A stretch of 64,000 nucleotides of DNA, taken from assembly GCA_947458455.1 (NCBI GenBank), contig CANGYJ010000005.1, positions 62,001-126,000 of the forward strand, given 5' to 3'. This DNA comes from Verrucomicrobiaceae bacterium. Lineage in GTDB: Bacteria; Verrucomicrobiota; Verrucomicrobiia; Verrucomicrobiales; Verrucomicrobiaceae. The first letter of the stretch is position 1. Each line of letters opens with the position of its first letter. Shown here one piece after another: positions 8,283 through 29,823 of this stretch. The position numbers were made by a program, and so were the translations under genes. The notes under the pieces are model-generated. The model was not told the origin of the DNA and made no database searches. It worked only from the letters and a program-made list of their open reading frames with translations.

Positions 8283-8373
8283 CCAAGCCCGTAGGGCTGC
8301 CACAACCATAGCCGTGGGTGCACCCCACGGATGCGTGTATCCCAGCGTCCAACCGCGTAGTGGTGACACAAAC
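8283..8373. repeat. REP-like hairpins left of the transposase, with left inverted end
   Basis: Three palindromic units occur in 91 bp: AGCCCGTAGGGCT (8285-8297), CCGTGGGTG-CACCCCACGG (8312-8330), and CCGCGTAGTGG inside the 24-bp stretch 8350-8373. The last stretch matches, as an inverse, 8873-8896 on the other side of the transposase with one mismatch. Similar units recur at 8930-9087. Confidence 0.75.
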
Positions 8374-8394: not shown

Positions 8395-8847
8395 TCAACC
8401 CGCGATGTATTGGTCGTCGTATTGGATTTTCGCTTCCTCCAACAGATGTCGGTATTCATCCAAATAGCCCGTCTTCTGATGATGAATCTGCTGGTCTTTA
8501 ATGTAGCGGATCACGGCGTCTTTTTCACGCACAGAGACAGTGAAAGCACCGTAACCGTCCTGCCAGCCTGTGAAATCGGGGAAGATAGTCTCTTTGCTGA
8601 TCCATCGGCTGGTGCCGGTTTTCAACTCGCGCATGTAGTCAGTCAGTGAAAGCGTCGGATGCAGGGACGTGAGGATGTGAAGGTGGTCTTCCATGCCATT
8701 GACGCGGTAGAGATGGCATTGCAGCCCCTGCTGGATGCCCCAGATGTAGCGAAACAGCTCCTCGCGGCGATCAGCGTGCAAAACCGGAGCGCGATTTTTC
8801 GTGGAGAACACGATGTGATACAAAATCTGCGTGTAGGTGTTTGCCAT
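8395..8847 (-). CDS. IS200/IS605-type (RAYT-like) Y1 transposase
   Basis: This 150-residue protein has the IS200 TnpA features: an opening TYTQILYHIVFSTKNR, the HUH motif in MEDHLHIL, and a later helix AVIRYIKDQQIHH that holds the likely catalytic tyrosine plus Q-x2-HH. Y1 transposases cut and rejoin single-stranded DNA at hairpins; RAYT relatives are tied to REP palindromes. There is no accessory tnpB. The gene is bracketed by 24-bp inverted copies of a REP-like palindrome (8350-8373 and 8873-8896), and more hairpins follow to 9087. It appears intact (complete motifs, normal length), so it may be active or domesticated. The start at 8847 gives the usual MANTYTQ opening. Confidence 0.9.
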   Translation of the reverse strand: MANTYTQILYHIVFSTKNRAPVLHADRREELFRYIWGIQQGLQCHLYRVNGMEDHLHILTSLHPTLSLTDYMRELKTGTSRWISKETIFPDFTGWQDGYGAFTVSVREKDAVIRYIKDQQIHHQKTGYLDEYRHLLEEAKIQYDDQYIAG

Positions 8848-8872: not shown

Positions 8873-9087
8873 GGTTTGTGTCACCGCTACGCGGTTCAAC
8901 CGAAATATTGGCTGGGTTTCTGGACGTGCGTCCGTGGGTTTCACCCACGGCTACGATTATGCCAGCCCTAGCGGGCTTCCAATCAGCACCGCATAGCGGT
9001 GATACAATAATAGCCGTGGGTGACAACCCACGGAACGAATGGCCAATAAACCACCGTTCGGCAGATGAAACCGCGTAGCGGAGACAC
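8873..9087. repeat. Cluster of REP-like hairpins right of the transposase
   Basis: The right inverted end is 8873-8896 (GTTTGTGTCACCGCTACGCG core). Further units are CCGTGGGTTTCACCCACGG (8931-8949), AGCCCTAGCGGGCT (8963-8976), CACCGCATAGCGGTG (8988-9002), CCGTGGGTGACAACCCACGG (9014-9033) and CCGCGTAGCGGAGACACA (9071-9088). The same palindromes appear in both orientations. This fills the whole 248-bp gap up to the SIS gene stop at 9096; no other feature is visible. Confidence 0.75.
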
Positions 9088-15776: not shown

Positions 15777-15924
15777 GGTGCGCCGATTGAAACGGGCGTT
15801 CAGCGCTTTGGAAACTGAAAATTGGTCCTGGAATCGGAATATCTACTCCGCTTCACCGGGAAGGGTGATTTCGAAGAGATGGAGCCGTGGAGAGTTGCAG
15901 TCATGGAGTGGTGGGCTGATGGAG

Positions 15925-16012
15925 CCAACACTCCAACACTCCAACACTCCAACACTCCAACACTCCAACACTCCATTACTCCAGTACTCCAGTACTCCAA
16001 CACTCCAGTGCT
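15925..16012. repeat. Octamer tandem repeat array (CCAACACT)
   Basis: Eleven consecutive 8-bp units occur without interruption: six exact CCAACACT (15925-15972), then CCATTACT, CCAGTACT, CCAGTACT, CCAACACT and CCAGTGCT. Variants cluster at the right end. The surrounding 268-bp gap (15777-16045) between the DUF4178 gene start and the stop of the dimethylformamidase-like gene (both on the minus strand) holds nothing else obvious. An 8-bp period is not a multiple of three, so this is not a coding repeat, although it reads open on both strands. Confidence 0.95.
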
Positions 16013-16045: not shown

Positions 16046-17509
16046 TCACCCCAGCGCTCGCTTCAGCAGATTCGCCGTGATGCGCTGCACACGCTTATCG
16101 GTGCCATGGGGACGGGAGTAGTGACTCCACACCGGCATGTGACCGGGTGGTTTGCTCAGGCCCTGTGCCCACCAGATGGTGGAGGCATTGAAGATGAAAT
16201 TGCCCTTCGGACCCTCAAAAATGACTGACTGCCATTGCTGCGGGTTGCGACCACCTTGGAAGGCGGTGCCTGCGGCGAGGACTTCGAGGCCGGGAAGGTC
16301 TTTGGGCGGATCGCCATGATATTCCCAGCCGATCATGCCAGGGATGGAATCCCCCTTCTTCATGCCGGTGCCATCAAAAAGCCAATGCTCGGGCTTCACG
16401 CAGGTCCAATCGCCACCGCCGTTGACGGGGTCGATGTTTCGCACGCCCATCAGGTAACCTTCATCCGGGCCGCGATGCGGATAGGGGCCATGCTCTTTCT
16501 CGCGACCCACCGCGTATTTGTAGTCACCCCCATACGGCCCGCCACGGAAGATGCGGCGGTTTGGCACGCCCGAGGCATTGGGCGAGAAGGGCGTGACCCA
16601 GCAGACGGAATTGCCGGAGAGGAAGAGAAGGTTCACGCCAGCATCGCGCATCTTTTCCACGCTTTGATACTGACGAATGTCCCAATACTCATCGTGGCCC
16701 ACACTGATGAAGGCCTTGGACTTCAAGCCGCGCTCCGGGGAGATCATGTCCTCATTCGAGCAGTAGCTCACGTCATAGCCCTGCTCCTCCAACCAGTAGG
16801 CCAGCGGGAATTCGAAGCACAACCACTCGCCGCTGCCGACCGACTGCGGGTTCTCATAGATCTGCGCATACTTCGCGTAAGGCCGGTCAAAGCTCACCTC
16901 GCTCGTTGAGCCTTGGTTCCCCTTCGGATCGGTGTAGAGCGAGTAGTCATCCGGCCATTTGTTGTAGGCCTGCCAGGTGTTGTCACTGCATTGGAGAAGG
17001 ATGTCCGCCTTTCGGTCATCGGTGATGATGAAGACGATGTAGCTCTGCCAGTAGGGTAGATCGCTCGTCGTTCGGCCTTCAGGCCGTTCCGGGGACGGGC
17101 TGAAGCCCGAACTACGAACCTCCGGGATCGTCGTCAAACGACCCAGATAGACGCCGCTGACCCAATCCGCCGGAATCTTGATCGACGTGGATTTCTCCCA
17201 CTGGCATTCGCGGAGGCGCTTTTCGCCAATACCGGGCGTGGGCTGCTCTTTGCCTTCAAAAGGACCCAGCTCGGCCAGTTTGCGTGCGCCACGGCCTTGA
17301 TAGAAACCGGTGCGGAAGATCTCCATCTTGAAATTCGCCGCCGGTTTTGTGCTCACGAAGACATCGAGCACCTCGCCGGCTTTCACCGACTGCCGCGAAC
17401 AGTACCCCTCAATCACTGGCGAGCGATAGCCGCTGCCATCCAGCCGCATCCGCGTGAGCTGCCAGTCGTTGGAGCCTGCGCGGGCGTTTTCTTGTTGGAT
17501 CACATTCAT
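16046..17509 (-). CDS. N,N-dimethylformamidase beta-subunit-like protein
   Basis: This 487-residue protein resembles the large-subunit C-terminal domain of N,N-dimethylformamidase: a beta domain first (PVIEGYCSRQSVKAGEVLDVF, MEIFRTGFYQGRGARKL), then QCSDNTWQAYNKWPDDYSLY, KAFISVGHDEYWD and LLFLSGNSVCWV, ending with NFIFNASTIWWAQGL. The parent enzyme is an iron amidohydrolase, but most relatives are uncharacterised. No signal peptide is visible. Residues about 130-149 (EVRSSGFSPSPERPEGRTTS) are encoded by a REP-like palindrome that sits in frame between two conserved strands, probably as a surface loop. The gene diverges from the sulfatase. Confidence 0.85.
   Translation of the reverse strand: MNVIQQENARAGSNDWQLTRMRLDGSGYRSPVIEGYCSRQSVKAGEVLDVFVSTKPAANFKMEIFRTGFYQGRGARKLAELGPFEGKEQPTPGIGEKRLRECQWEKSTSIKIPADWVSGVYLGRLTTIPEVRSSGFSPSPERPEGRTTSDLPYWQSYIVFIITDDRKADILLQCSDNTWQAYNKWPDDYSLYTDPKGNQGSTSEVSFDRPYAKYAQIYENPQSVGSGEWLCFEFPLAYWLEEQGYDVSYCSNEDMISPERGLKSKAFISVGHDEYWDIRQYQSVEKMRDAGVNLLFLSGNSVCWVTPFSPNASGVPNRRIFRGGPYGGDYKYAVGREKEHGPYPHRGPDEGYLMGVRNIDPVNGGGDWTCVKPEHWLFDGTGMKKGDSIPGMIGWEYHGDPPKDLPGLEVLAAGTAFQGGRNPQQWQSVIFEGPKGNFIFNASTIWWAQGLSKPPGHMPVWSHYSRPHGTDKRVQRITANLLKRALG
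17065..17119. repeat. REP-like palindrome inside a coding sequence
   Basis: CGTTCGGCCTTCAGGCCGTT (17069-17088) is followed by ACGGGCTGAAGCCCGAACTA (17095-17114), two facing hairpin units of the type also found intergenically at 29757-29823. The repeat is read through without a stop codon by the dimethylformamidase-like gene. Confidence 0.85.
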
Positions 17510-29756: not shown

Positions 29757-29823
29757 GTTCGTCGCTCGGGCTTCAGCCCGTTTTGGAGCGTAAACTCACG
29801 GGCTGAAGCCCGAACTACGAACA
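29757..29823. repeat. REP-like palindrome after fabD
   Basis: GTTCGTCGCTCGGGCTTCAG opens the left arm at 29757; the right arm is its near-inverse, 29799-29823 (ACGGGCTGAAGCCCGAACTA plus CGAAC). The sequence is of the same family as the repeat embedded in the coding region at 17065-17119. It lies between converging genes. Confidence 0.85.

Follow-up and report, generated by a model that had tools for sequence, protein, structure and literature searches.

REP sequences of Escherichia coli are typically extragenic. Intragenic GTAG REPs that are read in frame and code for 20–30 residues have been described by Di Nocera et al. (2013, PMC3733652); in that account, they are most numerous in Opitutus terrae (Verrucomicrobia), and REPtrons can be lacking in REP-bearing species. 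Classical in-frame palindromes in genes are the RPEs of Rickettsia (Ogata 2000, 2002, reviewed in PMC10969869). The window analysed here, a 64,000-nt stretch of contig CANGYJ010000005.1 of a Verrucomicrobiaceae bacterium (genome G000), carries a REP dimer inside a gene for a dimethylformamidase-like protein (gene A). Since GTAG REPs and Rickettsia RPEs have been published, the basic finding of an in-frame REP is already known.

The present family resembles the GTAG REPs of Di Nocera et al., as described (PMC3733652), in consisting of tagged palindromes, often opposed dimers, that are read in frame and include tRNA synthetase genes among their hosts. The other hosts, DMFA2_C, PSD1 and DUF7133 proteins, differ from those of that set, for which a single same-site case is given, recB of two Xanthomonas species (PMC3733652). 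An insert common to paralogues, one site occupied in many paralogues and two families per loop distinguish the present case from the set as described there. Rickettsia RPEs, as reviewed in PMC10969869, are likewise mobile palindromes that many unrelated genes tolerate in frame as extra protein segments; however, they are about 150 bp long, whereas the element considered here is a 57-nt GTAG dimer of PVC bacteria, and the two are likened by behaviour. The element works like an RPE and is not filed as one. A GTAG tag followed by a hairpin, in facing pairs, is also the arrangement of the E. coli REP/BIME system with TnpA-REP (RAYT) (PMC8266576). Unlike in that system, no cis RAYT was found for the present family: in the incomplete G000 assembly, the REP unit (≤4 mismatches) does not occur in the roughly 1.5 kb around the Y1_Tnp genes. 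What is added to the known picture is the sharing of an insert between paralogues and the recurrent occupation of a single loop by repeats of different families, and no report of either was found among the open-access papers searched.

The REP dimer and its host gene

The features of the locus are as follows (positions in the window):
16046–17509, minus strand: host gene A, DMFA2_C (N,N-dimethylformamidase beta-like), ORF of 487 aa; ATG at 17507–17509, stop at 16046–16048
17063–17119, minus strand: GTAG-type REP dimer in frame, coding for V131–S149, VRSSGFSPSPERPEGRTTS
17096–17115, minus strand: REP unit 1 with the canonical GTAG tag, GTAGTTCGGGCTTCAGCCCG
17067–17086, plus strand: REP unit 2 with the tag GTCG, GTCGTTCGGCCTTCAGGCCG, facing unit 1 across a 9-nt spacer
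29757–29823, no strand assigned: intergenic REP dimer of the same family, immediately downstream of a TGA stop

Read directly, the plus strand of the element is GCTCGTCG-TTCGGCCTTCAGGCCG-TTCCGGGGA-CGGGCTGAAGCCCGAA-CTACGAAC. Within the 57 nt, a pair of 26-nt inverted arms, complementary at 85% of positions, contains two 6+6 sub-hairpins. Folding energies of the separate strands as single-stranded DNA are −20.8 kcal/mol (z = −4.5) and −21.0 kcal/mol (z = −5.0), and none of 200 shuffles folds as well. The unit TMGTTCGGSCTTYAGSCCG (≤3 mismatches) occurs four times in the window, with 0.21 expected from dinucleotide shuffles; two of these units lie within 17065–17119 and two within 29757–29823. The whole genome contains 58 stretches matching the element at E < 0.001, and the REP unit pattern gives 119 matches versus 19 for the reversed control. 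Most REP loci examined in G000 consist of two facing units; in the element, the GTAG tag stands 5′ of the short palindrome in unit 1, and the facing unit 2 has GTCG. Judged by sequence, the element is a member of a GTAG-type REP family dispersed through this Prosthecobacter-like Verrucomicrobiaceae genome. The palindrome proposed in the original prediction is thus real on the evidence of its sub-hairpins, shuffle excess, fold z and genome matches, and its kinship with the intergenic palindrome holds, both having the same units; the position given, 17065–17119, was right, and the true element is 2 nt longer on one side.

Host protein A scores 262.4 bits against PF20254 (gathering score 27). The top Foldseek matches of its model are dimethylformamidase (6lve/6lvd) and an acylase (8huy); identity to these solved enzymes is about 10%, and the dimethylformamidase-like activity is putative. 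The reading frame runs unbroken through 487 codons with no internal stop, in agreement with the prediction that the repeat is read without stop or frameshift. Values of dN/dS are 0.095 and 0.074; gene A is therefore under purifying selection (dN/dS about 0.08) and is not decaying. In the AlphaFold2 model (mean pLDDT 65.9), residues 132–153 lie between strands 119–128 and 156–163 with pLDDT below 50, as a flexible loop would, so that at low confidence the insert may be placed in a flexible loop between two strands; a surface loop had been expected.

A tandem CCAACACT-like array is located at 15920–16010, just past the 3′ end of gene A. A REPtron-like unit is also present in the window: a 150-aa IS200/RAYT-like Y1 transposase gene (8395–8847, minus strand) is flanked at 8308–8334 and 8928–8954 by a different GTAG-type palindrome, GTAGCCGTGGGTGAAACCCACGG, with none expected by chance.

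Recency of the insert and further coding copies

The loop from ...GRLTT to PYWQ has 24 codons in A versus 7 in its orthologues, a net gain of 17 residues; the figure of about 20 residues predicted earlier is right for the element itself. As the net gain is only 17 residues for a 57-nt element, the insertion took the place of about 6 nt of native loop sequence. In the genus collection, the 25 other A-type orthologues examined all lack the insert at exactly this position, even those 90–93% identical to A (among them G029 and G014, at 92–93%), as do the 30 B-type orthologues examined there, B being the paralogue treated below. In a wider set of 80 homologues, drawn from public Verrucomicrobiota and Planctomycetota genomes, almost every member has a stretch of 25–27 residues at the loop and lacks the insert. 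The exceptions are L224, L237, L247 and L254: L224 has a REP dimer in the DMFA2_C loop and belongs to the sole other species with one among the 80, L237 (Brevifollis gellanilyticus) has an insert of the type found in genome G005, and L247 has a CCCTCTCCC/GGGAGAGGG palindrome. With absence from the 25 A orthologues and a REP dimer in just 1 of 80 wider homologues, residues 131–149 are not conserved repeat look-alikes, and the alignments place the insertion in A as recent. Absence from orthologues, together with the loop model, supports the earlier reading of a repeat turned protein loop.

In a Planctomycetota bin (L247/L305), the DMFA2_C loop contains another palindromic repeat, CCCTCTCCCCCGGTGGGAGAGGG, in frame. 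The B loop of genome G024 has a 12-residue insert that matched no repeat family.

The REP family has at least 15 coding copies in 14 recognisable G000 genes, according to a census of about 40 REP loci and pattern counts. Three loci with ORFs over REPs and no recognised family (L003, L063, L065) and two probable N-terminal cases (L059, L079) were left out. The genes are:
A and B, six PSD1/DUF1553 genes, and four of DUF7133 or HEAT/cytochrome-c-type
one squalene-hopene-cyclase-like gene, and an isoleucyl-tRNA synthetase gene with two single units

Given these copies and the published in-frame REPs, the statement that repeats are normally purged from coding sequence is too strong.

The six PSD1/DUF1553 dimers (L004, L005, L007, L008, L076, L155) occupy one identical site, with a common joint and frame, YxQSS|(E/A/S)FVVR...GLKPE, replacing the native loop; relatives have REP dimers at that site in L134, L135, L136 and L141. 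Seven further PSD1 paralogues (L151, L153, L157, L160, L161, L178, L179) have TSFP(T/S)RS at the loop, encoded in L153 by another palindrome, GTAGAACGAGTTTTCCAACTCG. A second palindrome family, with CGAGTTTTCCAACTCG units, thus appears to occupy the PSD1 loop, the DNA having been examined in L153 only. One PSD1 insert is common to the G000 and G029 orthologues (L144, L194), so REP inserts can outlive speciation. Isoleucyl-tRNA synthetase L056 (G000:C3:217456-219843) contains two single in-frame units, EVRSSGFSPSG and DVRSSGFSPSG, both in loops variable among relatives; the second of these loops holds a different insert in G009.

A partial C-terminal duplicate of this synthetase lies downstream of L056 (C3:216680-216802). 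In HEAT/cytochrome-c-type proteins L061 and L066 (G000) and L137 (G029:C50), REP dimers are similarly placed before an 'LsxLFG' motif.

Paralogue-common inserts

The second-best genome match of the REP dimer (93% over 68 nt) falls in paralogue B (G000:C1:390090-391544), whose protein is 62% identical to A. The insert in B is at the identical residue, strand and frame, and this most unusual part of the finding had been missed in the original prediction. The two inserts have 4 differences over about 63 nt, whereas identity over the remainder of the two genes is 65.7%. The 19 common codons contain 3 differences, all synonymous. With only these 3 changes, the insert dS between A and B is 0.22, versus 0.68–0.78 when A is compared with its nearest orthologues; the sharing thus looks younger than the split of A from them. 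The 9-nt spacer of the A and B inserts was not found in the other REP copies examined. The source genome may be a metagenome bin, as many of its relatives are; an assembly artefact is argued against by the location of both copies on contigs over 400 kb and by the 4 bases that differ.

Parallel cases occur in two further genomes. In G056 (JAGKWZ), A and B each contain a REP dimer at the site used in G000; the two dimers share a spacer (3-nt gap), which differs in length from that of G000 (12–15-nt gaps). G005 has CAGGGAACTGAGAACCC in the matching loop of both genes. Thus, in 3 of 3 genomes with an insert in A, B has one too; G028 has an insert in B alone, its A having been examined and found without one, and no genome examined has it in A alone. 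In comparisons of G000 with G056, the flanking sequences match gene for gene (A–A 80.5%, B–B 87.1%), and outside the loop A clusters with A and B with B. As the insert follows the genome and the flanks follow the gene, concerted evolution appears confined to the loop. Within this grouping, G000 B and G056 B are sister sequences, and G000 A and G056 A are not.

Selection on the insert peptide was considered but is not claimed. All three A/B changes are synonymous (about 27–33% expected per change), and a PSD1 orthologue pair has 3 synonymous versus 2 nonsynonymous changes; both sets are too few.

Origin of the insert in gene A

The preferred reading, with a probability of about 0.7, is in-frame REP insertion into a tolerant hairpin loop followed by gene conversion that carried the loop segment from B into A. 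The GTAG REP dimer, a mobile palindrome that is small and non-autonomous and was presumably mobilised by a RAYT-type transposase, entered the hairpin loop between strands 119–128 and 156–163. It could survive as protein because each strand of the REP unit has two of its three frames open and because extra residues are tolerated in the loop; the insert is putatively without effect on protein function. Paralogue B would have been hit first, and the loop segment then copied into A over the conserved flanks (...IPADW-SGVYLGRLTT / PYWQSY...). An insert at the identical spot in a paralogue points to the copying of such inserts from one related gene to another. The presumed direction from B to A follows from the B-only insert of G028 and the absence of A-only inserts in the genomes examined, from the sister relation of G000 B and G056 B, which the A genes lack, and from the canonical REP ends kept in G000 B. 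No clean conversion tract was seen in the flanks: G000 A–B identity near the loop is high, at 75–82%, but within the range of insert-free genomes and no outlier among 24 genomes. A short A-like patch, ATT CCG GCG GAT TGG, occurs in G000 B. As the flanks hold no decisive tract, gene conversion is put forward as the presumed route. Insert identity alone is not decisive, A versus B within G000 being no higher than G000 B versus G056 B (88.9%), and the argument for copying therefore rests on the common spacer length and sequence.

Same-site inserts could also come from a preferred or repeatedly tolerated target, as the PSD1 site, with its unrelated spacers and second palindrome family, indicates. 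Were the REP machinery to prefer a loop sequence or structure, A, B and the PSD1 paralogues would have been hit separately at the same nucleotide. The six G000 PSD1 paralogues and four in relatives, with one joint (YxQS/T|), one frame and differing spacers, fit such target-specific insertion, as do the G056 and G000 A genes, which are not sisters in the tree yet have common joints. However, separate hits predict something other than a private spacer common to A and B within a genome and differing between genomes, and no obvious common target is seen by eye around intergenic copies; this explanation is unlikely, though it is the strongest competitor. Somewhat less likely is pure tolerance, by which insertions are random, only in-frame ones in a few permissive loops survive and nothing is copied. 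Unrelated repeats in one DMFA2_C loop (the REP dimer, the GGAACTGAGAAC repeat and, in a Planctomycetota bin, the CCCTCTCCC-GGGAGAGGG palindrome) and the variable synthetase loop with different inserts in G000 and G009 speak for tolerance, but it accounts for the loop and not for the same nucleotide, frame and spacer in A and B. Tolerance probably acts together with copying.

An insert ancestral to A and B and lost in other lineages would account for both paralogues having one in G000 and likewise in G056. However, the native loop hardly varies in length among more than 50 A- and B-type orthologues, and the dS of 0.22 between the A and B inserts falls far short of the divergence between the two genes; on these grounds, ancestry was rejected as highly improbable. 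That the residues are native and their likeness to the repeat coincidental is hardly credible, given their absence from orthologues, the DNA fold z and the 58 genome matches, and no point in its favour was found. As for how insertion and copying might be linked, it is conceivable, though doubtful, that spread is homing-like, with the hairpin of a REP in one paralogue, or a RAYT, driving transfer of the loop to the corresponding site in sister genes and hence concerted loop evolution.

In three genomes, paralogues that remain diverged elsewhere have repeat-derived protein segments in common. If the copying reading is true, REP insertions would be a source of new protein loops passing from one member of a gene family to another, for which PVC bacteria, with their many PSD1 and DMFA2_C paralogues, would constitute a natural experiment.
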